Source: Balneolales bacterium
Lineage (GTDB): Bacteria > Bacteroidota > Rhodothermia > Balneolales > Cyclonatronaceae
Reading direction: 5' to 3'
Length of the DNA stretch: 37,560 nucleotides
Assembly (NCBI GenBank): GCA_022565805.1
Contig: JAIULZ010000026.1
Span: 1 to 37,560, forward strand
The notes under the pieces were generated by a model. It was not told the origin of the DNA and did no database searches. It saw only the letters and a list, made by a program, of their open reading frames with translations. Below are positions 1,139 through 36,893 of this stretch, one piece after another. The number at the start of each line of letters is the position of its first letter. Position 1 is the first letter of the stretch. Both the position numbers and the translations under genes were made by a program.

Positions 1139-1624
1139 ATGAGTCTGGAAAAAACACTTGATAATCAGGGTTTTTTAACCACAAATCTTGATTTTATTAC
1201 AAATTGGGCACGCGCTAATGCAATGTGGCCAATGCCAATGGGCTTAGCATGCTGCGCTATAGAAATGATGGCATTCGCAGGTCCTAAATATGATGCATCC
1301 CGTTTTGGATCGGAGGTGATGAGATTTTCACCACGGCAGAGCGATGTTATGATTGTAGCAGGATGGTGCACGTATAAAATGTCTCACGCAATACGCAGAA
1401 TTTGGGATCAAATGCCTGATCCAAAATGGTGTATCGCCATGGGGGCTTGTGCATCTACCGGTGGTATGCACAGATGCTATGGTGTTGTTCAGGGTGTCGA
1501 TAATTTTATTCCTGTAGATGTTTACGTCTCCGGATGTCCGCCACGCCCCGATGCCCTGCTGAATGCACTCATGCAAATTCAGGAAAAAGTAAAAACAGAG
1601 CATTCTACAGTATACGACGGCTGA
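1139..1624 (+). CDS. nuoB: NADH-quinone oxidoreductase subunit B
   Basis: The complex I subunit that binds the terminal [4Fe-4S] cluster N2, the direct electron donor to quinone. The product is 161 aa, normal for the family. The four cluster ligands are visible: the adjacent pair Cys38-Cys39 in GLACCAIEM, Cys104 in GACASTGG and Cys133 in VSGCPPRPD. The [10 protein letters not shown] lead-in and [17 protein letters not shown] are typical of NuoB. It is translated right after nuoA and 43 nt before nuoC. All ligands are intact, so I expect a functional protein. Confidence 0.97.
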
Positions 1625-1667
1625 TTCAGCTATTTTTTTAACTTTTCTAGTTGTACAACTATTATAT

Positions 1668-2174
1668 ATGAGCAGAACAGAAAAACTGCAGTCTGTAATT
1701 GAAGACCTCAAAAATCAATTTGAGGGTGATATTATTGAAATCAAACAACATGCCGGAGATCAACAGATTCGTGTATCTTTGAATAAGATACATGATGTAT
1801 GTGAGTATCTTTTTCAAAAACATCATTTTGCCTATTTGGTTGATGTTTTTGGAGCAGACCGATTCACTTCTGAAGATCGTTTCGAGGTAATTTATCACAT
1901 TGTTTCGCTTAAAACTGGTGTTCGCATCTTTTTGAAGACATGGTGTTCCGAAGAAAATCCTGTGGTGCCAACTGTAACCGATATATGGGAAGGTGCAAAC
2001 TGGAACGAACGCGAAGTTTGGGATATGTTCGGCATTCGATTTGAAGGACACCCCGACCTCAGACGCATTTTTATGCCAGAAGATTTCACCTATCATCCAT
2101 TGCGTAAAGAGTTTCCTCTTTTGGGTATACCTGGCTCTATCGATTTACCTACCACCACTCCGGACTCTGAATAA
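1668..2174 (+). CDS. nuoC: NADH-quinone oxidoreductase subunit C (30 kDa)
   Basis: A peripheral-arm subunit of complex I that packs against NuoD and carries no cofactor. It is 168 aa, a stand-alone NuoC, not the fused NuoCD of enterobacteria. The 30-kDa subunit signature spans about residues 107-151: NWNEREVWDMFGIRF, then HPDLRRIFMPEDF and HPLRKEFPL. The start is ATG at 1668 after an AT-rich 43-nt spacer from nuoB; nuoD follows after 18 nt. Confidence 0.96.
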   Translation: MSRTEKLQSVIEDLKNQFEGDIIEIKQHAGDQQIRVSLNKIHDVCEYLFQKHHFAYLVDVFGADRFTSEDRFEVIYHIVSLKTGVRIFLKTWCSEENPVVPTVTDIWEGANWNEREVWDMFGIRFEGHPDLRRIFMPEDFTYHPLRKEFPLLGIPGSIDLPTTTPDSE

Positions 2175-2192
2175 ACAGCAGTTGTAAATACT

Positions 2193-3482
2193 ATGGAATT
2201 AAAAAACTCAATTCTCGATAAATCCAAACCAACTTTCTTTGAAAAGCATCAAAATGCTTTGTACAAGAGTCTTGAGGATAAACATACTACAGTCGAAGTA
2301 GAACAAGATCCACTTGGTACAAGAATGATCTTAAACATGGGTCCGCAGCATCCGGCTACTCATGGCGTACTTCGTTTATTGCTAGAACTCGAAGGCGAAA
2401 AGATTCTGCGTAACCGGCTGGATATTGGTTATCTGCACAGAGGTATAGAGAAAATTGCGGAGAATAAAACCTATCAGGAGTTCATGCCCTATACCGATCG
2501 CATGGACTATCTCTCCCCTTACAGCAATAATGTTGCTTTGTGCACAGCGGTAGAAAAAATTGCTCAAATAGAAGTACCAGACCGGGCTCAGTATATACGT
2601 ATGATTGGCGCCGAGCTGGCAAGAATTTCATCACACCTTTTGTTCCTTGGAGCCATGGTTATGGATACGGGAGCTATTTCTTTCTTTATCTGGACATTTA
2701 AGGAAAGAGAAAGGATTTACGACATTTTCGATAATTTCGGTGGTCACCGCTTCACTATTTCTCATTGTAGAATTGGTGGTGTTCATAACGATCTTACTCC
2801 TGAATGTATCTCTATGATTAAAGAATTCACGGAGAGCTTTCCTAAAGAGCACAGCGACTGGCTAAAACTACTCAACAAAAATAGAATTTTTTACGATCGT
2901 AATGCCAATGTAGGCAACATAACCTACGATCAGGCCCTTCAGCTTGGTGTTACAGGTCCGAATATTCGAGCAGTAGGGGTACCTTACGACATACGCAAAT
3001 TCGACCCATATTTAAAATACGACGAAGTAGAATTCGATATACCAACCCGTCTTGAGGGCGATAATTTATCCAGGTATTTTATACGTATGGAAGAGATGCT
3101 CGAAAGTATACGTATTATTCGTCAGTGTCTCGACAAAATGACCCCCGGCCCAATTCGAACAGATAATGCCAAGCAAACCTATCCTTCCAAAGACGAAGTA
3201 TATTATTCGATGGAAGGCCTTATTCATGATTTTATGATGACGGATACAGGTATTTGTCCGCCCGCCGGTGTTGAGTGCTACCACGCAGTGGAAGCGCCAA
3301 AAGGCGAGCTCGGTTTTTACATCCAAAGCGACGGCACAGGTCATCCCTGGCGAATGAAAATTAAATCGCCTTCTTTCACAAACCTTCAGGGCTTAGAAAA
3401 AATGTTAGATGGCGAAATGATTGCCGATACAGTAGTTATGATTGGTGGAATTGATCCGGTAATGGGAGAATCAGATAAATAA
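2193..3482 (+). CDS. nuoD: NADH-quinone oxidoreductase subunit D (49 kDa)
   Basis: The 49-kDa subunit of complex I, homologous to the large subunit of [NiFe] hydrogenases, which forms the quinone site with NuoB. It is 429 aa with about 45 extra N-terminal residues before the conserved core. GPQHPATHGVLR (50-61) carries the conserved quinone-site histidines, and TDRMDY (101-106) ends in the tyrosine expected to contact the quinone headgroup. RIGGVHNDLTP and VECYHAVEAPKGELGFY are further family blocks. The hydrogenase Ni-Fe cysteines are absent, as expected for a NuoD. The stop is 2 nt before nuoE, consistent with translational coupling. Confidence 0.97.
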   Translation: MELKNSILDKSKPTFFEKHQNALYKSLEDKHTTVEVEQDPLGTRMILNMGPQHPATHGVLRLLLELEGEKILRNRLDIGYLHRGIEKIAENKTYQEFMPYTDRMDYLSPYSNNVALCTAVEKIAQIEVPDRAQYIRMIGAELARISSHLLFLGAMVMDTGAISFFIWTFKERERIYDIFDNFGGHRFTISHCRIGGVHNDLTPECISMIKEFTESFPKEHSDWLKLLNKNRIFYDRNANVGNITYDQALQLGVTGPNIRAVGVPYDIRKFDPYLKYDEVEFDIPTRLEGDNLSRYFIRMEEMLESIRIIRQCLDKMTPGPIRTDNAKQTYPSKDEVYYSMEGLIHDFMMTDTGICPPAGVECYHAVEAPKGELGFYIQSDGTGHPWRMKIKSPSFTNLQGLEKMLDGEMIADTVVMIGGIDPVMGESDK

Positions 3483-3484
3483 TT

Positions 3485-4030
3485 ATGAGCGAAACATTCG
3501 AATTTACTAAAGAAGAGCTGGCCGAAATAGATAAAATCAAAGCAAAATATCCGGATAAAAAATCACCGGTGATGCCAGTGTTGTGGCTTGCTCAGAACAA
3601 GTTTGGCCATGTCGAACCCGAAGTTCAGCAACTTGTAGCCAAAACTCTCGATATACCGGCTGCACACGTTTACGGGGTAGTAAGCTTCTACACTCAATAT
3701 TATGGCACCCGAAAAGGAAAATTTGTTTTTGATGTGTGCACTACATTAACATGCCAGCTTTGTGGCGGGTACGATATTTTGCATCATCTTGAAGATAAAT
3801 TAGGTATTAAAGCCGGTGAAACTACAGAAGACGGTATGTTTAGCATACAATCTGTTGAGTGTTTAGGTGCCTGTGGTTATGCCCCTATGATGCAGATAAC
3901 CAATGGCGTTTATTGCAACCATCTTACAAAAGAAAAAGTAGACCGGATAGTTGATGATCTAAAAGCCGGCAAAATGCCTGAATTTGAACAAATTCCTTTC
4001 CCGCAACACCAGAACGAATCTTCTAAATAA
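3485..4030 (+). CDS. nuoE: NADH-quinone oxidoreductase subunit E (24 kDa)
   Basis: The thioredoxin-fold 24-kDa subunit of the NADH-dehydrogenase module, binding [2Fe-2S] cluster N1a next to NuoF. It is 181 aa. The cluster ligands are Cys85 and Cys90 (C-x4-C in CTTLTCQLCGG) and Cys126 and Cys130 (C-x3-C in ECLGACGYAPM). The helical N-terminal region (LWLAQNKFGHVEPEV) and VYGVVSFYTQY are typical. The last 25 residues are charged and probably flexible. It lies between nuoD (2 nt) and nuoF (11 nt). Confidence 0.97.
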   Translation: MSETFEFTKEELAEIDKIKAKYPDKKSPVMPVLWLAQNKFGHVEPEVQQLVAKTLDIPAAHVYGVVSFYTQYYGTRKGKFVFDVCTTLTCQLCGGYDILHHLEDKLGIKAGETTEDGMFSIQSVECLGACGYAPMMQITNGVYCNHLTKEKVDRIVDDLKAGKMPEFEQIPFPQHQNESSK

Positions 4031-4041
4031 GCAAAACCGTT

Positions 4042-5322
4042 ATGTCTGTAGACTGGAAAAATTTTGAACCTGTTTTATTACCCAAAATACCGGTATTACA
4101 CAAAATAGATGTGTATGAAAAAAACGGTGGCTATGATCAATTAAAAAAAGTTCTTAAAGACTGGACACCCGAAAAAGTAACAAACGAAGTTAAAGCCGCA
4201 AATATTCGCGGAAGAGGTGGTGCAGGATTTAATGCAGGCCTCAAATGGTCTTTCATGCCTAAACCCGACGGCGGACCCAGATATATCGCTGCAAACGGGG
4301 ATGAATCTGAACCAGGTACATTTAAGGATCGTCAGATTTTTGAGTACAATCCACACCTCTTTATTGAAGGTGCAATCATCGCTGGTTTTGCAATGAGTAT
4401 TACTGCCGTTTATGTGTATATCCGCGGCGAATACAAAGACTGGATTGATATGATGCAGAAAGCCGTAGATGATGCCTACGCTAAAGGCTATCTGGGTAAA
4501 AATATTCTGGGCTCCGGCTTTGATATAGATATGTATGTACATTCTGGTGCCGGTGCATATATATGTGGAGAAGAATCGTCTTTGATGGAATCTCTCGAAG
4601 GTAAACGCGGATATCCTCGTGTTAAGCCCCCGTTTCCTGCTCAGAAAGGATTGTGGGGTCGTCCTACAACCATTAATAACATTGAAACACTTGCCAATGT
4701 ACCCCTTGTTATCAAAAATGGTGCAGAGTGGTACACTGGCATTGGAGCAAAAAACCATCCCGGACCAGTTCTATACGGCATTTCCGGCCATGTAAATAGA
4801 CCTGGTGTTTACGAATATCCCACCGGTATGTCTATAAATGATCTCATTTATGATGTATGTGGTGGTGTTCGTGGGGGTAAAAAAGTTAAAGCAGTTATCC
4901 CTGGCGGCTCTTCTACTCCTCCCCTTCGCGGAGATCAACTCGAAGGCGTTTGCATGGATGCCGACAGCCTGCGAACAGCCGGTTCTATGATGGGAACAGC
5001 AGGTATGATCATTATGGACGAAGACACCGATATGGTAGATGTGCTCTGGAGAATCTCTCACTTCTACCATCATGAGTCCTGCGGGCAATGTACGCCTTGT
5101 CGCGATGGAACAGGCTTTTTAGAAAAAACACTCATCAAAATCCGCGATGGTCATGGTGAGATGAGAGATTTAGATTTATTACTTGACCTTTGTACTCAAA
5201 TGGAAGGCCGTACAATTTGCGCCCTGGCAGATGCAGCAGCATGGCCGGTTCGCTACACCGTTACGAGATTCCGCGAAGATTTTGAGAAAAGAGTTAAAAA
5301 TACCGTTTACGCTCTAGCCTAA
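4042..5322 (+). CDS. nuoF: NADH-quinone oxidoreductase subunit F (51 kDa)
   Basis: The NADH- and FMN-binding 51-kDa subunit, where electrons enter complex I. It is 426 aa. The glycine-rich nucleotide motif is GRGGAGFNAGLKWSFMP (57-73), followed by NGDESEPGTFKDR. HSGAGAYICGEESSLMESLEG (from about 167) completes the flavin site. The [4Fe-4S] cluster N3 ligands are Cys347, Cys350 and Cys353 in SCGQCTPCRDG, plus Cys393 in RTICALADAAAWPV. All key residues are present. It sits 10 nt before nuoG, so E, F and G form the usual NADH module gene set. Confidence 0.98.
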   Translation: MSVDWKNFEPVLLPKIPVLHKIDVYEKNGGYDQLKKVLKDWTPEKVTNEVKAANIRGRGGAGFNAGLKWSFMPKPDGGPRYIAANGDESEPGTFKDRQIFEYNPHLFIEGAIIAGFAMSITAVYVYIRGEYKDWIDMMQKAVDDAYAKGYLGKNILGSGFDIDMYVHSGAGAYICGEESSLMESLEGKRGYPRVKPPFPAQKGLWGRPTTINNIETLANVPLVIKNGAEWYTGIGAKNHPGPVLYGISGHVNRPGVYEYPTGMSINDLIYDVCGGVRGGKKVKAVIPGGSSTPPLRGDQLEGVCMDADSLRTAGSMMGTAGMIIMDEDTDMVDVLWRISHFYHHESCGQCTPCRDGTGFLEKTLIKIRDGHGEMRDLDLLLDLCTQMEGRTICALADAAAWPVRYTVTRFREDFEKRVKNTVYALA

Positions 5323-5332
5323 ATTAGTTCAG

Positions 5333-7072
5333 ATGCCCGAAATTTTTATAGATAACGTCCGCTACGAATTCGAAGGTAAGCCTTTGGTACTTCAGTTTAT
5401 GCTGGACCACGGCTTAGATCATCCGTTTTTTTGCTATCATCCTTCACTTTCTATACCAGCTAACTGCCGGCAGTGCTACGTTGAGGCAGGTACACCTGTT
5501 TTTAACAGAGAAACCAATAGCTACGAACTGGATGAGTCTGGAGAAAGAGTTATACGCTTTTTCCCGAAACTAATGACTGCCTGTAGTTTGGAAGCAACAG
5601 ATGGTATGGTTATTAAAACCCATCGTACCAGTGCTCTTGTGGAAAGAGCACAAAAAGATACCATGGAGTTTATTCTTGTAAACCATCCTCTGGATTGTCC
5701 AATCTGCGATCAGGCCGGTGAGTGTCCGTTACAAATACAAACCTACAAATACGGACCCGAAGGATCACGATTTGAACATAAAAAAGTTCATAAGCCTAAG
5801 CGCATCAAGCTTGGCCCAAGAGTAATTTTAGATGCAGAGCGTTGTATTAACTGCACTCGTTGCGTACGCTTTACAGAAGAAATAAGTAAAACTCATCAGC
5901 TTACTATTATTTCCCGTGGTGACAAAAATTACCCTGCTGTAGCTCCAGGTACAGAGTTTGATGATCCTTACTCGCTAAATACAGTTGATATATGCCCGGT
6001 TGGCGCCCTCACGTCTTCAGACTTCCGCTTTAAAGCACGTGTTTGGGAAATGAACCAAACTCCCGGCATAGACATAACTAATGGCAAAGGCTGTAATATA
6101 GACGTGTGGACACGGGATAACGTTGTGATGCGAATTACACCACGCTACAACCCTGCTGTTAATGACCACTGGATGCCCGATTTTGGCAGGGAAGACATCC
6201 GCAGAATGAACGAAAACAGAATTTCAAAGCCAGAAGTACTACTCGATGGCGACCGAATTAAGTCATCCTGGAATAATGCAGAGCTTAATTTTACTGAAAA
6301 TCTTGCGGGATTAGAATCAAATGAGATACTTGTTATCGGCTCAGCATTTTCTAGTGTGGAAGACAACTATGCTGTAAAAAAACTTTTCAGTACACTTGGT
6401 TTTAACCATCAGGTTTTCGTGCCAAATATTAAAGAAGGCTCGGGTGATGGCTTCCTGATTGACGATGATCAGTACCCTAATACCAATGGTTGCCGCCTTC
6501 TTGGTTTCGAAGAACTTACTTCTGAGAAGCTAACTTTGTTGCTATCCAAAGGTAACTTCAAGATGATTGTATCGCTTGAAGACGATCTGGTAGGCAGAGG
6601 TGTTTTAAATGAAGATCTGCTTAAAGAACCCTATTTTGTATACATGGGTTCTAATCACAACAAGACATCTGCTCTGGCAGACCTGATTGTACCCATAGCA
6701 AATTCTGTAGAGCAAAGTTGTTCTTATGTGAATTCAAGCGGAAGAATTCAGCGAACAACTGCAGCTAAGGAAACACTCTATACAAATAGAAGACTTAATT
6801 TAGAAATGTCTGTTGGGCGCCTCGATCGCTATGGTACCAAATTCGATAACTGGGTTACAGACCGTAATCGCATAGACTGTATACCAGCATGGGATTTTAT
6901 AGAACGTGTTGCAACTAATCTGGATAAACAAACAGGCTACGAGTCTGCATCCGAGATTATGGATGAAATTGCTTCTGTATTACCAGCTTTTAATGGTCTT
7001 AGTTACGACAGAATTGATGATGAACTGGGGGTTCAAATCATCGGGGATGTTAGTAAAGTAACTTCTGCCTGA
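5333..7072 (+). CDS. nuoG: NADH-quinone oxidoreductase subunit G (75 kDa), short form
   Basis: The iron-sulfur subunit that carries electrons from NuoF towards NuoI and NuoB. Domains in order: a [2Fe-2S] ferredoxin-like domain (Cys34, Cys45, Cys48, Cys84), the His-ligated N5 cluster (His118, Cys122, Cys125, Cys131 in HPLDCPICDQAGECP), the N4 cluster (Cys171, Cys174, Cys177 and Cys221 in DICPVGALT), then a shortened molybdopterin-oxidoreductase-like domain. It is 579 aa, clearly shorter than the roughly 780-910 aa of the Thermus and E. coli proteins. The place where those proteins carry the extra N7 cluster here reads TPGIDITNGKGC (243-254), with one cysteine only, so N7 is predicted absent. 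nuoH follows after 29 nt. Confidence 0.95.
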   Translation: MPEIFIDNVRYEFEGKPLVLQFMLDHGLDHPFFCYHPSLSIPANCRQCYVEAGTPVFNRETNSYELDESGERVIRFFPKLMTACSLEATDGMVIKTHRTSALVERAQKDTMEFILVNHPLDCPICDQAGECPLQIQTYKYGPEGSRFEHKKVHKPKRIKLGPRVILDAERCINCTRCVRFTEEISKTHQLTIISRGDKNYPAVAPGTEFDDPYSLNTVDICPVGALTSSDFRFKARVWEMNQTPGIDITNGKGCNIDVWTRDNVVMRITPRYNPAVNDHWMPDFGREDIRRMNENRISKPEVLLDGDRIKSSWNNAELNFTENLAGLESNEILVIGSAFSSVEDNYAVKKLFSTLGFNHQVFVPNIKEGSGDGFLIDDDQYPNTNGCRLLGFEELTSEKLTLLLSKGNFKMIVSLEDDLVGRGVLNEDLLKEPYFVYMGSNHNKTSALADLIVPIANSVEQSCSYVNSSGRIQRTTAAKETLYTNRRLNLEMSVGRLDRYGTKFDNWVTDRNRIDCIPAWDFIERVATNLDKQTGYESASEIMDEIASVLPAFNGLSYDRIDDELGVQIIGDVSKVTSA

Positions 7073-7101
7073 TTTAATTACATTTAATTGAAAACCGTTT
7101 A

Positions 7102-8118
7102 ATGGAATATCCAATAGTATCCTCCTATCTGATTTTAGCAGTCTCTTTGGCTTTTCTGCTACAATCAGCTGCCGTATGTGTTTATGCCGAGCGCAGGATA
7201 GCTGCTTTTATTCAATACAGGGTTGGACCAAACAGGGTTGGTCCTTTTGGCGCACTACAGCCGCTCGCAGACGTTATAAAGCTCATCTTTAAAGAAGATG
7301 TTACGCCTATATACGGGAATAAAACGCTTCATACCGTTGCACCACTTATTCCGGTAGTTACAGCTCTTCTTACAATAGCCGTAATTCCTTTTGGTGACGG
7401 TCTTTTTATTGTTGATTTAAATGTAGGCGTGCTTTACCTGCTGGCTGTAGCTTCTTTGGGTGTATATGGTGTTACCATGGCCGGTTGGGCATCTAACAGT
7501 AAATATTCTCTTTTTGGTGGTTTACGAGCTGCTGCTCAAATGCTTAGCTACGAACTTCCAATGGGTATGGCTGTCGCCTCTATGGTTTTGTTTGCTGGTT
7601 CCCTATCTCTTATTGATATGGTAAATACGCAAATGTACTGGTGGGGCGTTTTTGTTAATCCCATTGGGTTTATCATTTTCGTGGTCGCTACGTTTGCAGA
7701 GGCTAACCGCACACCTTTCGACCTGGTTGAAGCCGAACAAGAGCTTGTTGGTGGTTTCCATACCGAATACAGCTCCATGAAGTTTGGTATGTTCTTTCTT
7801 GCAGAGTATATGCACGTAGTAATTGGAAGTATGCTTATTACTACGTTTTTCCTTGGTGGTTACCATCTTCCGTTTGCCGGTTACTATGCCCACTTGTTGC
7901 CAGAAGCAGGTACATGGGCTAAAGCCTTGCTCGATATTCATGTTTTCCTTGGCAAAACCGCCTTTATGGTATTTGTATTTATTTGGGTACGATGGACAAT
8001 CCCAAGATTTAAGTATAACCAACTCATGAGTTTGGGATGGGCTAAACTACTGCCTCTTTCAATTGCGAATTTTGTGATTATTGCGTTTATCTTAATGGTC
8101 ATTCATACGTATATGTAG
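7102..8118 (+). CDS. nuoH: NADH-quinone oxidoreductase subunit H
   Basis: The membrane subunit that joins the peripheral arm to the membrane arm and shapes the quinone tunnel. It is 338 aa with about eight hydrophobic segments. The family signatures are complete: AERRIAAFIQYRVGPNRVGP near the N terminus, and EANRTPFDLVEAEQELVGGF with YSSMKFGMFFLAEY in the central loop, where the conserved acidic residues of the E-channel lie. It is the last gene of the operon: a strong terminator follows about 80 nt downstream and nuoI is not next to it. Confidence 0.97.
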   Translation: MEYPIVSSYLILAVSLAFLLQSAAVCVYAERRIAAFIQYRVGPNRVGPFGALQPLADVIKLIFKEDVTPIYGNKTLHTVAPLIPVVTALLTIAVIPFGDGLFIVDLNVGVLYLLAVASLGVYGVTMAGWASNSKYSLFGGLRAAAQMLSYELPMGMAVASMVLFAGSLSLIDMVNTQMYWWGVFVNPIGFIIFVVATFAEANRTPFDLVEAEQELVGGFHTEYSSMKFGMFFLAEYMHVVIGSMLITTFFLGGYHLPFAGYYAHLLPEAGTWAKALLDIHVFLGKTAFMVFVFIWVRWTIPRFKYNQLMSLGWAKLLPLSIANFVIIAFILMVIHTYM

Positions 8119-30318: not shown

Positions 30319-31281
30319 TTAAGGTATATTTTTCTTAACCGAAGACAGCCACTCAGGGGTGGAAATATCGCCCTGAAAACGGTCAATCATATTATTTAGT
30401 GATGAATAATTTAGCCTGTCAAGTGCATAATCAATTAGTTTAAACCATGGGAAACCAGCTAATATTAAAACATACACATATGAGCTAAAACTTATGTTCA
30501 TAGTCCATTCAATTCCAAAATGCATACCCACGAGTAGTAACACTATGAAGGGTCTGAAAAAAGAAGACCAAACCATAACCCCAACGGCCTCTGTAGCTAA
30601 GCCAAAAAACAGTATGATAGTTGCCAGCCAGTACCATTGTATAGTAAACTCCTGGAGTACATTTAGCTGAAACGAACCGTCTGCAGAAAGTACATCTACA
30701 CTTCGCTCTCCAATCCAAAGCCAAAGATGTCTGCCGTCTATCCAAAGTGGACCAGTACCGATAAGCTTACAAACTGCAGCGGAAGTATAGGCAAGACCCA
30801 TAAAAAATAGAATCATGCCGAAAGAAAATTTACGGAAGCGAATACCGTCTTTATACAAAATGGCGGCAACAGCAAGCGCAAGCAGACATAAACCAGCCAT
30901 ATTCGAACCATGAGATATCTCCCCCAAAGAATAGCGAGAGATGTACTGAAAGTGGATAGCAAAAACAGCAATGAGATATGAAAACTTATTCAGTCGCAAA
31001 AAGCCTGCGGCACAAGCTAGTGTAATAATACCAGCATTGAGATAGGGCAGCAGGTCATCAAACATAAAATGTACGCTAATGTACTGAGCCAAACCCAATG
31101 GCAGCACTACATCCTGAATTCTTGAAATATATGGAGCCCAGTTCCATGCATACGTTATTATGAGTGAAATAATAAGCAGCTCCAGCATTTGAAAATAAAT
31201 ATAATATCCTCTCGACTCGACCTGCCCTGGCTGGAAAATCATATTGGAAATCCAGTCGATAAATTTATTCACCTTATTCAT
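30319..31281 (-). CDS. HTTM-like multipass membrane protein
   Basis: A 320-aa integral membrane protein with about eight hydrophobic segments. Its layout resembles the HTTM domain related to the vitamin-K-dependent gamma-carboxylase N terminus: short charged turns such as GIRFRKFS, KLIGTGPLWIDGRHLWLWI, and a histidine-containing helix near LLVGMHFGIEWTMNISFSSY. I rate the family assignment as likely, not certain. No lumenal enzyme domain follows. The start overlaps the stop of the upstream gene by 4 nt (31278-31281), indicating translational coupling with it. The function is unknown. Confidence 0.6.
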   Translation of the reverse strand: MNKVNKFIDWISNMIFQPGQVESRGYYIYFQMLELLIISLIITYAWNWAPYISRIQDVVLPLGLAQYISVHFMFDDLLPYLNAGIITLACAAGFLRLNKFSYLIAVFAIHFQYISRYSLGEISHGSNMAGLCLLALAVAAILYKDGIRFRKFSFGMILFFMGLAYTSAAVCKLIGTGPLWIDGRHLWLWIGERSVDVLSADGSFQLNVLQEFTIQWYWLATIILFFGLATEAVGVMVWSSFFRPFIVLLLVGMHFGIEWTMNISFSSYVYVLILAGFPWFKLIDYALDRLNYSSLNNMIDRFQGDISTPEWLSSVKKNIP

Positions 31282-31757
31282 CTCGGCAAATCTCCCCTCA
31301 AATCAGGATGCAATATGGTAGCTTCCGGGCTCATAAAAATATATGGCTGGTAAGAAATCACTACAGAATCTGATATTTCCGGATGAAGACTTCCCGTTAC
31401 CTTATAAATCATAATTTGCTCTCTCGAAGTAACTTCGCCCAATAAGGCACGCATATTGCTAAGAGCACGCTCATTCCACTCTGCTGTCTTAGAAACGAAA
31501 TTTGATACATCATTTTGATTTACACCGAGCGAAACCATAGACAAAACGTCTCCATCGAGCTGATCTGCGCCTACAGTTTTCCAGTTTATCATATTTTCGT
31601 CGTAATCGACCACGCGAACATGGGATCTGACCCACGGATTTCCGGCCTGTGAGAACATCGGAAAAATGCTAAAGGGCCAGAATTCACCTTCATGAGGGGC
31701 CACAAGCACTCCAAAAATAATAAATACAGTGATGAGGGCCTTTTTATTTTTCTTCAT
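31278..31757 (-). CDS. Membrane-anchored exported protein with a WPFSIFPMFS motif
   Basis: A 159-aa protein with an uncleaved-looking N-terminal membrane segment (KKALITVFIIFGVLVAP, about 4-21), then GEFWPFSIFPMFSQAG (25-40) and a soluble domain with beta-strand-like alternation. WPFS/FPMFS-type motifs recur, in my recollection, in small proteins encoded next to HTTM/VKGC-like membrane proteins. The downstream start overlaps this stop by 4 nt. I do not recognise a family name or enzymatic motif. The two proteins probably work together in the membrane. Confidence 0.65.
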   Translation of the reverse strand: MKKNKKALITVFIIFGVLVAPHEGEFWPFSIFPMFSQAGNPWVRSHVRVVDYDENMINWKTVGADQLDGDVLSMVSLGVNQNDVSNFVSKTAEWNERALSNMRALLGEVTSREQIMIYKVTGSLHPEISDSVVISYQPYIFMSPEATILHPDLRGDLPR

Positions 31758-31886: not shown

Positions 31887-32867
31887 TTACGCACTTGTCA
31901 AACTCCTTTCCTGCACTATTTCTTCCCATCTTCTTTTTTTATAGGAATTGAAATATTTTTTTTCATGATTCCAGCCGAAATGGATAGCGTAGGGTGTAAC
32001 CTTAAGGTGATCCATACTACGGGGGAGAATTAATTTTCCAGCCGTCATCAGAAGTTTATATAGCCACTTAGATCTGATTCCGCGGAAGGAGAAGATAAAG
32101 GGATTACAAAAATAGATGCAGCTTACCTCTCTAAAATCTTTATCGTATTGTGTTAGAAAATGAATAAAATCGAGCTGTGGAGTTTCGTAACCATTAAACC
32201 AAGGGTATACATGAGTTTTGAGGCTACTCATTGCCATACCCAGACTCCATTCACAACTTTCCAGGTTACGGTTCTTTTCTTTGGTTCTGCTTACAAAGTG
32301 TGTTTGATCCATCTGATCCAGAAAATACGAAGCCTTTCGGCCAACCTCTTCTGCAAGAGCTTGATTACTTGCATACATCATCCCTGTTTGTACCCGGGGC
32401 AAGTGGGTAAGACCAAAACGTTTAAGCGTTTTCTGTCGCCTCCTCAGTAAGATATCAAAAGCAATTCCTATCGACTTGGAAGCCCCAAAGAAAACATCAG
32501 CAGAATCGACACCTGTAATAGTGAAGCCGTAAGGCTGCAAATTATGCCACAACGGATCGGGATTACGGCACCAAATCATATCTGAATCGAGGTACAAATT
32601 CCTGTCAAATGGCATAAATTTATGAATACTATGCTTAAAACCCACGATACTTTGGTATTGGGGTTCAAGAATACCTTTAAACTGGAAGTAATCGTCTAAA
32701 CCTCGTTCCCGAAGTGTATCGATGTGTTCCTGAGAAGCGTATATAGCAATCGGGCGGGTTTTATCATACCTTCTTATTGAATCGACACATACGATTACAT
32801 CATGCAGATATTTTAGCTTACCGTAGCTGGTAAATACATAACCTTCCTGTTTTATGGAAGCTGACAT
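31887..32867 (-). CDS. GT-A-fold glycosyltransferase (DxD type)
   Basis: A 326-aa cytoplasmic protein of the nucleotide-diphospho-sugar transferase fold. The donor-binding signature is NLYLDSDMIWCRNPD, with the DxD motif Asp94-Ser95-Asp96 expected to bind the metal and sugar nucleotide. N-terminal VFTSYGKLKYLHDVIVCVDSIRRYD resembles the start of GT8/GT24-like families. RVQTGMMYASNQAL (about 158-171) is the block after the DxD where such enzymes place the acceptor-side residues. HFGWNHEKKYF near the end resembles the terminal His segment. I cannot assign a CAZy family or acceptor. It is 129 nt upstream of the membrane-protein pair on the same strand. Confidence 0.75.
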   Translation of the reverse strand: MSASIKQEGYVFTSYGKLKYLHDVIVCVDSIRRYDKTRPIAIYASQEHIDTLRERGLDDYFQFKGILEPQYQSIVGFKHSIHKFMPFDRNLYLDSDMIWCRNPDPLWHNLQPYGFTITGVDSADVFFGASKSIGIAFDILLRRRQKTLKRFGLTHLPRVQTGMMYASNQALAEEVGRKASYFLDQMDQTHFVSRTKEKNRNLESCEWSLGMAMSSLKTHVYPWFNGYETPQLDFIHFLTQYDKDFREVSCIYFCNPFIFSFRGIRSKWLYKLLMTAGKLILPRSMDHLKVTPYAIHFGWNHEKKYFNSYKKRRWEEIVQERSLTSA

Positions 32868-33597: not shown

Positions 33598-34701
33598 TTA
33601 TTCGACAACAAAGAAATTGTAAAAGCCATCTAATTTATTCTTATCGCCCATATCTACGGTGCCAAGACCCCGGAATTCCAAAACTTCGCCTCCAAGAAAA
33701 GTCCGGGCTGCTCTTCTCGCAACCCATGAAAGCTCGCTTAATACAGAAAAGCGCTCTTCATCTGCTGTACGAGACAAAGTTACAAAAGACATCTGCCCTT
33801 CCGGATGCATTAACGTAAGCTGTACTTCTGCGGGAATTCGTTTGCCAAAAGCTCTCGAACGGCTCAATTCTTCCATTTGATGAACCTGCTCTACCCAAAC
33901 ATTTCCGTTCTGATTAACCAATTTATGACCAATCGTCTGATTTCCTTTCTCAGAAGCCGGAAGCATAAAGTAAAAGATAGTCCAGTTGTTTTTATCTTGA
34001 TGGCTTATAAAACGAAAACCACTATCCATTAAGCGTGTTGTGGTTTGGTTTTGGAAAGTATGATCCATATAAGCCGTTCCATAGACCTCGCGCTGCTTAT
34101 CATTAATTTTAACAGAACCAGCTACTTTAGCGTAAGGGATGTGCGTAAAAATTCCTATTTCTTCATTTCCGATGTGATAAATGCCATTATCCCATTTAAA
34201 TCCCTTATGAATATCAGTTAGTGTAAGATGGATATCATAAGTAACACCGTCTTTTGAAGTACTTATAACCAGCTCGTGTTTATCTGATAAACTCCCGCTG
34301 AACCAAACATCGCGCCCCTCTCTTAATTGAAAATGATGCCCCTCTTTATCCTGTATTAGGTGCTCAATCGGGTATTCTCTTGATAGCTGATAAGTCTTGG
34401 AATCGAAACCTACTAAAGACAGGCGCAAGCCACTAACCGGGGATTTAAGGCTTCCGAAATTAGCTACAGAATAAGTGATATGAAGACGAATATCATCATT
34501 CAGAAAAAAATGATAGCTCCAAAACTCGTTGTAATGACTCCCGCTTAGAGTTTGTGCCCAAATATCTTGCTCATCGGTATAGTTGAGATCTCCACTCGGA
34601 TTCATAACCTGAGCATCAGCTTCTGTGGCTAGAGTAAAACCAGAAAGTTTAACAAAAACGAAAAAGCCGGTTAGTATTACAGCAGAATATTTGGTAATCA
34701 T
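33598..34701 (-). CDS. Exported CrtC/AttH/Svf1-like lipocalin-type protein
   Basis: A 367-aa protein with a signal peptide (MITKYSAVILTGFFVFVKLSG...DAQ, cleaved near residue 31). The body resembles the double-barrel lipocalin-like superfamily that includes hydroxyneurosporene synthase (CrtC), AttH and fungal Svf1. It shows EFWSYHFFLNDDIRLHI followed by an 'is it visible' type strand pattern, and YGTAYMDHTFQNQTTTRL in the second barrel, where the family has a conserved aspartate-histidine motif. The ATG at 34701 was preferred over a TTG at 34770 because the shorter form starts with the signal peptide. Likely periplasmic lipid or carotenoid binding; enzymatic activity is uncertain. It is 99 nt downstream of mlaC. 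Confidence 0.7.
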   Translation of the reverse strand: MITKYSAVILTGFFVFVKLSGFTLATEADAQVMNPSGDLNYTDEQDIWAQTLSGSHYNEFWSYHFFLNDDIRLHITYSVANFGSLKSPVSGLRLSLVGFDSKTYQLSREYPIEHLIQDKEGHHFQLREGRDVWFSGSLSDKHELVISTSKDGVTYDIHLTLTDIHKGFKWDNGIYHIGNEEIGIFTHIPYAKVAGSVKINDKQREVYGTAYMDHTFQNQTTTRLMDSGFRFISHQDKNNWTIFYFMLPASEKGNQTIGHKLVNQNGNVWVEQVHQMEELSRSRAFGKRIPAEVQLTLMHPEGQMSFVTLSRTADEERFSVLSELSWVARRAARTFLGGEVLEFRGLGTVDMGDKNKLDGFYNFFVVE

Positions 34702-34800
34702 ACGGTTCCGGATGGTAAAGAAGTTGGCGACAGCAATATCAATAACAGGATTGTTGCAATAAAATATCAAGGGTGCTACAGCTCGGCTACAATTACAATT

Positions 34801-35415
34801 TTAAATTAAGCCGGCTCGCCGCTTTAGGTTATCAAGTAATGCATCGTAGCCTCTTCTGCTAATGATACGCTGGAAAGACCTCCGGTAAGACTCGGCCGTA
34901 GAAACATTATCTACAGACATATCTGTAACAAACCATCCGTCGCTTCTTTTTTCCATCTCGTAAGTAACAGGAGTTCTAACATTTTCTAATGTTGCAACAG
35001 TACGAGCAGTTACAATATTTCCATCTACCTCAAAAGACTCATAAATGACATCTGCTCTGTAAATATCAAGGCTGTTTAAAGACTGATCGCGAATAACGCG
35101 GGCAAATACGTCAACAAATTCGCTTTGCTGCTCTTCAGACAAATCATCCCATGCAGACTGAAGCGCATGTTTTGCCATAGCTTTGTAATCAATAACTTCG
35201 TTGATTATATCCATCAACTCCTGCCGCTGCTCTTCGGTATGCTCGGTTCCTTTTGGACCAAGCAATTCTTTTATTTGAGCATCTCTCTGCTCGAGCATAG
35301 TTCTGGCTTCGCTCTCTAAATCTGATTGCAAAGCAGTAGCAGGTGAAGGAAACCCCGCTAGCATAAGAAGCAATATTACAATAAAACCTGTATAAACCTG
35401 TGATAAACTATTCAT
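34801..35415 (-). CDS. mlaC: MlaC/Ttg2D family periplasmic phospholipid carrier
   Basis: A periplasmic lipid-binding protein of the MlaC (Tgt2/toluene tolerance) family, 204 aa. The signal peptide is MNSLSQVYTGFIVILLLMLAGFPSPATA, cleaved near residue 28. The mature part shows the family pattern: an N-terminal helix pair (IKELLGPKG, QRQELMDIINEVIDYKAMAK), HALQSAWDDLSEEQQSEFVDVFARVI, then a beta-sheet (VIYESFEVDGNIVTARTVATL, VTYEMEKRSDGWFVTDMSVD). In Mla systems this protein shuttles phospholipid between the outer membrane and an MlaFEDB ABC transporter. No mlaA, mlaD, mlaE or mlaF is in the window. It is 56 nt downstream of the TolC-family gene. Confidence 0.9.
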   Translation of the reverse strand: MNSLSQVYTGFIVILLLMLAGFPSPATALQSDLESEARTMLEQRDAQIKELLGPKGTEHTEEQRQELMDIINEVIDYKAMAKHALQSAWDDLSEEQQSEFVDVFARVIRDQSLNSLDIYRADVIYESFEVDGNIVTARTVATLENVRTPVTYEMEKRSDGWFVTDMSVDNVSTAESYRRSFQRIISRRGYDALLDNLKRRAGLI

Positions 35416-35471
35416 GACTTACTCCCTAACTATTCGTGATTAAACTACTTTCAATTAATATTATCTGTCGG

Positions 35472-36893
35472 TTACTCATTTGTAGTTAAGCCAGAGTTAT
35501 AAAGCTGAGTAACCGGTATACCAGATGCATTCAAAAGTCGTGCCATTCTCATATTCAGATCATAGGTGCGTTGCTTTTGATCGGCTTCAAGCTCAATACT
35601 ACTACGAAAGGCATCAACAAGATTTGTTACATCACCAAATCCAATATCGTAGTCGAGTTGCTCCTGTCTTAGCCACTGCCGGCTTATATCCAGTGCTCTG
35701 CTATTATTTAGAAGTCTCGAACGCGCCACTCTTGCATCTTTATATCTGTCGCTGATTTCAAGTGCGATGCCATCCATTACTGCATCCTTTGCAAAACCAG
35801 CCTGCCTTAATTGAGCTTCAGCACGTTCTGTTCTGCTTTGAAGAATAAAAAAATTAAGATTTTGACGCAGTCCAATACCTACAGTTAAACTGGAAGTATT
35901 TGCAGGATTGCTAATAAATGGGTTAAACTGCCTCGGTCTGTTAGATGCATAGGCATAGCGGTAATTTGCACCCAGGAAAATGGCCGGGTAGTTTTGTGCC
36001 CGAACAGCATTTCTGCCGTATTCGGCTGTTTCTCTTACCGAGCGCAACTGCCTCGCCTCAGGACGAAGTACATAAGCCTGAGAAAGGTAAAAATCCAGTT
36101 CAAGAATTTCATCTTCAACAGGATCTAAAAAGGTTTCGGATGGTAAATACACAATACCAGAGCCTTGTACACCAAGGGCTATTTGCCAGGCACGAATGAG
36201 AAAAGCTACATTTTCATTAACTTCATCGAGTTGAGATTCGAACTCATACATAAAAATCTCAAACTGATAAAGGTCAGCATCATCTATTTCATCACTACCT
36301 TCATCTATAAGCTTTTGCAACTCTCGGTCAGCCATTCGAATAGTCGGTTTAGAATCTATAGCCAAACGCTGTAACTCCTTAGCTAGCAACATACCTTGGT
36401 AAAGCTGAAACAGCTGAAGTTCAAATCGGCTTTCCTCACCATCATACTCAAAAGCGGCAATATCAACAGCAGCTCTAGAGGCTTTAATCGCATTACTTAA
36501 TGCACCCCATGTATAGATAGGCTGCAAAACATTAATCTCAAACTGATTAAAAACGGCCCAATCATTCCAGTCATTCCTCAAAGTTGGATCTAAATAAAGT
36601 GCCGACTGAGAAAAACTGTCATCTTTTGATCGAACACCGGGAATTAAACCATGAGCTGTGGTAAGCGTGAGATTTGGTAAATAGCGACTTGCCTCGGTTT
36701 CAGAGCGTCTGCTTTCAGCGATTCGAACCTGCTGCTTTCTTGCCTGCATTTCTCTTGAATGATCAAGTGCAATGGATCGAAATTCCTCGAATGAGATGCG
36801 TACCGTATCAGATTCGGCAGGTTGTGCCTGAACCGAAAAGTACAATACAAAAACAAAAAGCACAGTAAGTGTAGCAATTTTATTCAGCTGCAT
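35472..36893 (-). CDS. TolC-family outer membrane channel protein
   Basis: An outer-membrane channel of the TolC family (OEP), 473 aa from the ATG at 36893. The signal peptide is MQLNKIATLTVLFVFVLYFSVQAQ. The mature protein shows the two heptad-rich helical repeats of the family: IALDHSREMQARKQQ near the start, LRPEARQLRSVRETAEYGRN in the second, and LDYDIGFGDVTNLVDAFRS as the typical helix near the end. NYPAIFLGANYRY is the second-repeat strand. A GTG at 36929 would add 12 residues before the signal peptide and is less likely. It is the first gene of an apparent operon with mlaC and the lipocalin-like gene. There is no adjacent MFP or RND pump. Confidence 0.87.
   Translation of the reverse strand: MQLNKIATLTVLFVFVLYFSVQAQPAESDTVRISFEEFRSIALDHSREMQARKQQVRIAESRRSETEASRYLPNLTLTTAHGLIPGVRSKDDSFSQSALYLDPTLRNDWNDWAVFNQFEINVLQPIYTWGALSNAIKASRAAVDIAAFEYDGEESRFELQLFQLYQGMLLAKELQRLAIDSKPTIRMADRELQKLIDEGSDEIDDADLYQFEIFMYEFESQLDEVNENVAFLIRAWQIALGVQGSGIVYLPSETFLDPVEDEILELDFYLSQAYVLRPEARQLRSVRETAEYGRNAVRAQNYPAIFLGANYRYAYASNRPRQFNPFISNPANTSSLTVGIGLRQNLNFFILQSRTERAEAQLRQAGFAKDAVMDGIALEISDRYKDARVARSRLLNNSRALDISRQWLRQEQLDYDIGFGDVTNLVDAFRSSIELEADQKQRTYDLNMRMARLLNASGIPVTQLYNSGLTTNE

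Follow-up and report, generated by a model that had tools for sequence, protein, structure and literature searches.

The window analysed here is the whole of contig C26 (37,560 nucleotides, nt) of G000, a Balneolales genome of 4.47 Mb in 290 contigs, and our subject is a trio of minus-strand genes that it carries. These encode a TolC-family outer membrane channel (OEP, PF02321; positions 35,472 to 36,893, with the ATG at 36,893; 473 amino acids), an MlaC-family periplasmic lipid-binding protein (PF05494; 34,801 to 35,415, ATG start, 204 amino acids) and an exported two-domain lipocalin, assigned to the AttH/CrtC calycin fold from its predicted structure (33,598 to 34,701, ATG start, 367 amino acids). 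The original prediction, made from the sequence alone, had described three consecutive minus-strand genes with short spacers and export signals on all of them, grouped in one operon and suggesting a dedicated envelope route for a hydrophobic molecule. The arrangement was confirmed, with spacers of exactly 56 nt (tolC to mlaC) and 99 nt (mlaC to the lipocalin gene) when counted from the ATG starts. The export signals were also recognisable by eye, as all three proteins have hydrophobic N-termini with A-x-A-like sites and no lipobox. A sigma-70 scan of the locus returned 8 promoter-like sites against 14.0 in shuffled sequences, which is fewer than expected by chance, and a terminator scan was likewise at or below chance.

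The first two proteins belong to the families that their names imply. The TolC protein matched the OEP family over two stretches with 116.6 bits (cut-off 22; E-value 1.5e-33); it scored below the model of the type I secretion subfamily (TIGR01844, 58.3 vs. 225.15), and a sequence search of the PDB gave no matches to it. The MlaC protein reached 102.3 bits against its family (cut-off 26; E-value 3.1e-29) and was the sole MlaC found in a search of its own genome. Its structural model, with a predicted local distance difference test (pLDDT) score of 89.6, resembled the structures 8dte (Z 21.1), 2qgu (Z 19.4) and E. coli MlaC (5uwa; Z 17.7, 3.0 Å over 170 residues). As judged by sequence comparison, this protein appears nearer to HpnM than to E. 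coli MlaC: the HpnM model TIGR03481 gave 55.4 bits, missing its cut-off of 160.1, and among 19 MlaC relatives the HpnM model matched all 19 (best E-value 9e-18), while the PRK15117 MlaC model matched 13 (best E-value 7e-7).

The locus was compared across 59 genomes of the order (G000 and 58 relatives), of which 49 were counted, mlaC loci being absent or unread in the other 10, and across the rest of the class, Rhodothermia in GTDB, where mlaC loci were read in 22 of the 26 genomes having MlaC. In all 71 loci (49/49 in the order and 22/22 elsewhere in the class), tolC lies immediately upstream of mlaC, and the mlaC and lipocalin genes stand 57‒103 nt apart on one strand in 6/6 genomes of the genus of G000; the gene order of the trio is therefore not a matter of chance. 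The predicted single operon holds only in part, since tolC-mlaC is a class-wide core but the trio is not one fixed unit: among the genomes read, a lipocalin gene right behind mlaC was seen only in the six genomes of this genus. The same comparison bears on the possibility that TolC is part of an ordinary efflux pump with its adaptor encoded elsewhere, mlaC merely following. TolC channels are often shared, and G000 has OEP genes on seven contigs (12 OEP stretches), both of which would suit such a pump; nevertheless, the adjacency of tolC and mlaC in 71/71 loci across many families makes this explanation very improbable in our view. TolC is instead likely to be the outer membrane exit of an exporter.

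The transporter co-occurring with the trio is most likely an HpnN/BstA-like RND protein of the MMPL family and not an Mla ABC system. In the lipocalin neighbourhoods of relatives, a recurrent adjoining gene encodes a protein of ~835 residues, which is an MMPL RND transporter. Its orthologue in G000, 63% identical to the query, is encoded on contig C80 (11,918 to 14,443) and is followed by recO and degP. This protein is a member of the MMPL family (PF03176, 147.1 bits, cut-off 20.5), and its nearest PDB structure by sequence is HpnN (5khn, E-value 4e-26). Its best curated model was HpnN TIGR03480 (244.5 bits, cut-off 751.85); the scores against a second HpnN model (NF052374, 145.8 bits, cut-off 1100), HAE3 (TIGR00921, 166.7 bits, cut-off 351.9) and BstA (NF045600, 162.6 bits, cut-off 1400) also stayed below their cut-offs.

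Among 296 genomes of the phylum, MMPL was found in 71 and MlaC in 68, all of the latter falling within the former, and three genomes of the class had neither. Within the order, mlaC and the MMPL gene share a strand at a distance of at most 15 kb in 36/49 genomes and are never on opposite strands within that distance; in related families, mlaC either adjoins MMPL or stands a few kb upstream of it. The two genes nearly meet at loci L134 and L135, where mlaC lies 117‒133 nt upstream of MMPL in the order atpA-atpG-tolC-mlaC-MMPL-recO-degP; at other mlaC loci, a variable island with glycosyltransferase and flippase-like genes stands between mlaC and MMPL-recO-degP. At L194, the genes form a single run, tolC-mlaC-glycosyltransferase-GT2-membrane protein-DUF3047-MMPL, and L197 repeats this set of labelled genes in an identical order.

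MlaC is generally regarded as a component of Mla/MCE systems, and G000 does carry two MlaE-ATPase-MlaD sets, on contigs C119 and C9, both without MlaC. The earlier statement that MlaFEDB is absent is thus correct for the locus, where mlaC has tolC and the lipocalin gene as neighbours and is not in an operon with MlaFED, but not for the genome. The original prediction had also named MCE/ABC genes with an MlaC of their own as grounds for regarding this one as unrelated; such genes do lie elsewhere, but the single MlaC of the genome is the one described here. This MlaC might serve the two MCE/ABC transporters as in E. coli and be a neighbour of tolC and the lipocalin gene by coincidence, a possibility for which its uniqueness in G000, the lack of an own MlaC in both MCE sets and a predicted fold equal to that of the phospholipid-binding MlaC would speak. 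However, MlaC is confined to genomes with the MMPL transporter (68/68), and a Bacteroides control has MlaD with no MlaC above the cut-off. The strand-matched linkage of mlaC to MMPL (36/49 genomes of the order) and the better fit of the relatives to HpnM than to PRK15117 MlaC (19/19 against 13/19) argue in the same direction, and we consider the purely Mla-type role quite unlikely.

In the order, the lipocalin gene lies within 2 kb of MMPL in 25/41 genomes and away from both mlaC and MMPL in 8/41. In L108 and L121, it has the orientation of MMPL and stands 25 and 99 nt ahead of it, respectively. Lineages without the lipocalin have a DUF3047 gene before MMPL, at 43‒79 nt in most of them, and elsewhere in the class a DUF3047 gene lies at most 250 nt before MMPL on the same strand in 14/14 genomes with a labelled DUF3047 (14 of the 20 MMPL loci fetched; outside the order, 29 genomes of the class had an MMPL match). 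This DUF3047 type B (98‒132 bits, 15 genomes) was separated by score and place from an unlinked type A (204‒253 bits). G000 itself carries a second, unlinked paralogue of type A (contig C85, 8,899 to 9,489; ~230 bits), which is present in many genomes of the order with or without the lipocalin. Type A matches and fragments (G002:C415; G041:C33, in two pieces) were left out of the type B counts. The lipocalin of G011, cut by a contig break, had its two pieces scored apart and was counted once as present, and that of G049 entered the presence count (42) with its locus outside the distance count (41).

On these definitions, 41 of the 59 genomes have only the lipocalin, 14 only DUF3047 type B, one (G027) both and three neither, the last being 67‒84% complete (Fisher p 7e-10, uncorrected for relatedness). 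Among the 39 genomes that are at least 90% complete (G000 was not included), the corresponding numbers are 25, 13, 1 and 0. A tree of 77 MMPL proteins was built from 57 of the 59 genomes and all 20 loci retrieved from class members outside the order; G008, which has no MMPL, and G047, with a fragment of less than 450 amino acids, are not in it. On this tree, the lipocalin and DUF3047 type B states need nine changes, and among 8 independent pairs across well-supported branches, DUF3047 changed contrary to the lipocalin in an average of 6.1 and in none did the two change in the same direction (median p 0.031). Almost identical MMPL proteins go with DUF3047 in G041 and with the lipocalin in G016, G024 and G056. 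The lipocalin appears interchangeable with the unrelated DUF3047 type B, and the use of either switches repeatedly, together with the glycosyltransferase island, as if matched to a cargo.

Alternatively, the lipocalin may be no more than a passenger in a hypervariable envelope-polysaccharide island that separates mlaC from MMPL, connected to the exporter by position alone. Such a passenger would be at home in this region, which is rich in variable glycosyltransferase, flippase and polyol-phosphate genes, and it might equally be found elsewhere, as the lipocalin is in 8/41 genomes. Yet DUF3047 type B is missing even in those eight genomes, so that the complementarity persists where the lipocalin is unlinked and hitch-hiking on the island becomes less likely; moreover, the lipocalin and MMPL genes keep one orientation at the short distances seen in L108 and L121. 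We regard the passenger explanation as unlikely. Two of the islands may be described here in their own right: that of L146 (G016) contains genes for an inositol-phosphate synthase, a nucleotidyltransferase, a CDP-glycerol-phosphotransferase-like protein and the lipocalin, and that of L225 (G041) contains DUF3047, although the MMPL proteins of the two genomes are nearly identical, a difference that looks like cassette exchange. Another gene of such neighbourhoods (L045, L047, L040 and L042) encodes a membrane protein with no Pfam match; some genomes have it adjoining or close to the lipocalin, others immediately ahead of DUF3047-MMPL. The protein is YbhN/UPF0104-like by eye and is a possible further component.

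The label "lipocalin-like" was borne out at the level of predicted structure. The protein had no family match above cut-off, with CrtC (PF07143) at 15.9 against 22.5, although this model was detected at an E-value of at most 0.05 in 29/39 lipocalin relatives; a PDB sequence search gave no matches, a search of the genome found a single member of the family, and the closest named relatives are from Balneolia/Balneolales metagenome-assembled genomes. Its model (pLDDT 91.9, from an alignment of 39 sequences) is a two-domain calycin of the AttH/CrtC kind, whose neighbours include Fsa2 (Z 24.3), AttH 2ich (Z 24.2, 3.7 Å over 293 residues), CghA (Z 23.5), kievitone hydratase (Z 21.8) and 25-phosphosteroid lyase (Z 19.3). 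Several enzymes thus stand among the predicted structural neighbours at Z 19‒24, and the lipocalin might mainly be an enzyme acting on the cargo in the periplasm, as a hydratase, lyase or cyclase comparable to CrtC, kievitone hydratase, 25-phosphosteroid lyase or CghA/Fsa2, in which case the exporter reading developed below would still stand. CrtC catalysis needs His239, Trp241, Tyr266 and Asp268 (PMC4717167, in the portion available). In the lipocalin alignment, Asp213 is invariant and Tyr211 nearly so, and this kept Y211-x-D213 recalls Tyr266/Asp268. By contrast, there is no evident His/Trp pair, position 187 being not conserved and position 189 being Pro (equivalences drawn by eye on the alignment), and no activity was found described for DUF3047, which replaces the lipocalin, in the literature as far as its texts were available. 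A mainly enzymatic lipocalin seems to us a minority prospect, less probable than not by a clear distance. We propose that it is a lipid carrier or a lipid-modifying accessory of the exporter. Relatives 32‒34% identical to it occur in a different neighbourhood in two Fibrobacteres metagenome-assembled genomes (L125 and L126). Among viral structures, one full-length match to the lipocalin model was found, Catovirus CTV1 A0A1V0SB04 (E-value 1.2e-13), which probably reflects a shared fold only.

The passage of lipids through the periplasm to the outer membrane is still largely unexplained. We propose that the three proteins form the periplasmic and outer membrane portion of an HAE3/MMPL-type envelope-spanning lipid exporter with the MMPL protein of contig C80 as its engine. 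We consider this moderately probable, inferring the partnership, direction and cargo from gene content, gene order, co-occurrence, complementarity and folds. In such a machine, MMPL would load a hydrophobic cargo from the inner membrane and, driven by protons, would lift it into its periplasmic domains, by analogy with HpnN, BstA and MmpL. MlaC, together with the lipocalin as a second carrier or cargo-finishing enzyme, would take the cargo across the periplasm, as their folds and linkage suggest, and the fixed tolC-mlaC order points to an exit that would lead through or beside the TolC channel. DUF3047 type B, encoded directly before MMPL, would fill the role of the lipocalin in other lineages. 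The dedicated envelope route for a hydrophobic molecule that the original prediction had suggested is therefore supported, with MMPL as its transporter, but not as one fixed three-gene unit, given that the lipocalin gene follows mlaC in one genus only.

Several observations weigh against this exporter. Every curated HpnN, HpnM, BstA and HAE3 cut-off was missed. The same single class holds all occurrences of MlaC and MMPL, so that their co-occurrence amounts to few evolutionary events, and MMPL occurs without MlaC in G141, G258 and G281, two of which have very long branches in the MMPL tree. In the class beyond the order, only 2/22 genomes show linkage of mlaC to MMPL within 15 kb. Even in the genus of G000, the MMPL gene lies apart from the trio (on C80 in G000, and 0.83 Mb apart in the one-contig genome G005), which speaks against a simple operon. 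With relatedness taken into account, the pair test speaks only weakly for complementarity (p ~0.03), G027 has both the lipocalin and DUF3047 type B, and the two MCE loci might be served by this MlaC as well. Finally, we know of no classical adaptor protein (membrane fusion protein) that would couple such a TolC to MMPL; none was named among the neighbour genes read, although no systematic search for one was made.

Comparison with known systems places this candidate exporter near, but outside, several of them. Hopanoid transport by HpnN/HpnM shares an MMPL RND transporter and an MlaC-family protein, and its NCBIfam models are the best for both G000 proteins; it differs in that the curated cut-offs are missed, hopene cyclase is absent in G000 and tolC is fixed beside mlaC here. 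According to the accessible parts of the sources, HpnN functions with no partner in the periplasm or outer membrane (PMC6394551) and is placed in HAE-3 (PMC8277102). AmeABCD of Castellaniella defragrans, for which export of hydrophobic molecules across the whole envelope has been proposed, likewise combines an HAE3 RND protein with an outer membrane and two periplasmic proteins encoded by linked genes, but its outer membrane part is a DUF1302 protein and its periplasmic parts are DUF1329/LolA-like and COG4447 proteins (PMC6394551, same parts), whereas TolC, MlaC and the lipocalin or DUF3047 are found here. In the BstABC sterol transport of Methylococcus capsulatus, the MMPL-family BstA acts with periplasmic and outer-membrane-associated lipid binders; BstB is a phosphonate-type binding protein, BstC is of another family, TolC goes unmentioned in the main text (PMC10942540), and the BstA model score was far from its cut-off here (162.6 against 1400). 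We conclude that the G000 system is not a member of HpnN, BstA or AmeABCD, because the defining features tested for these were not found in it.

E. coli Mla (MlaFEDB-MlaC-MlaA) shares the MlaC fold, but here no MlaFEDB gene lies at the locus and MlaC tracks MMPL, not MCE. AttH/NE1406 (2ich) has the same two-domain calycin fold and a predicted role with lipids and transporters; in the available portion of the source, it is tied by genome context to ABC transporters (PMC2954199), whereas the lipocalin here is tied to an RND transporter. The sections available of the AmeABCD, BstABC and HpnN sources (PMC6394551, PMC10942540 and PMC8277102) mention no partnership of such an RND transporter with MlaC, a lipocalin or DUF3047. 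MlaC, MMPL, RND and TolC were not found together in a literature search, the scope of which left out most subscription papers and all bioRxiv preprints outside PubMed Central. The metagenomic clone pJR76, of gammaproteobacterial type and from a perchlorate-resistance screen, has the C-terminus of an MMPL protein followed by an MlaC gene, which the accessible text does not link functionally (PMC8343002), and the MMPL-MlaC pairing may thus exist outside the class. More tentatively than for the exporter itself, and with the odds slightly against it, Balneolales and their class may possess a distinct exporter class, with an MMPL engine, MlaC replacing the classical adaptor, a TolC exit, and a modular lipocalin/DUF3047 selectivity subunit exchanged together with glycolipid-making genes. 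This clade connects MlaC not with Mla/MCE but with an RND transporter and a TolC channel; the natural exchange of one periplasmic protein for an unrelated one at an otherwise conserved transporter makes the role of such proteins testable, and DUF3047 gains a possible functional setting.

As for the cargo, our guess is a glycolipid, because a glycosyltransferase-like gene lies within 200 nt behind mlaC in 38/71 loci (20/49 in the order and 18/22 in the rest of the class) and because of the glycosyltransferase island. A hopanoid is probably not transported and was rejected for the clade, since squalene-hopene cyclase (PF13243) is absent in G000 and present in only 1/59 genomes. Carotenoids, which the original prediction had brought up, found no support either as cargo or as substrate of a CrtC-type hydratase, with the CrtC model below its cut-off and only part of the catalytic pattern kept. 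An inositol lipid was considered in view of the myo-inositol-phosphate synthase and nucleotidyltransferase genes beside the lipocalin in some genomes, but this arrangement is not general.

In contig C26, the glycosyltransferase-like gene (31,887 to 32,867, minus strand) is separated from mlaC by the lipocalin gene and 730 nt. Its product is GT-A-like with a conserved DxD motif (D94-x-D96), a GT8 match below cut-off and no PDB match by profile search. In the other direction, the stretch upstream of tolC to the contig end (36,894 to 37,560) contains no atpG, in contrast to relatives, in which atpA-atpG stands just before tolC in 37/49 mlaC loci read. An ordinary complex I (NADH dehydrogenase) gene cluster occupies 1,139 to 8,118 on the plus strand. 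A conserved pair of minus-strand genes at 30,319 to 31,757 encodes proteins of 320 and 159 amino acids with overlapping start and stop and no Pfam match; this pair also occurs near DUF3047-MMPL or MMPL in many relatives (e.g., L130, L136 and L137), and it may belong to a wider exporter system.

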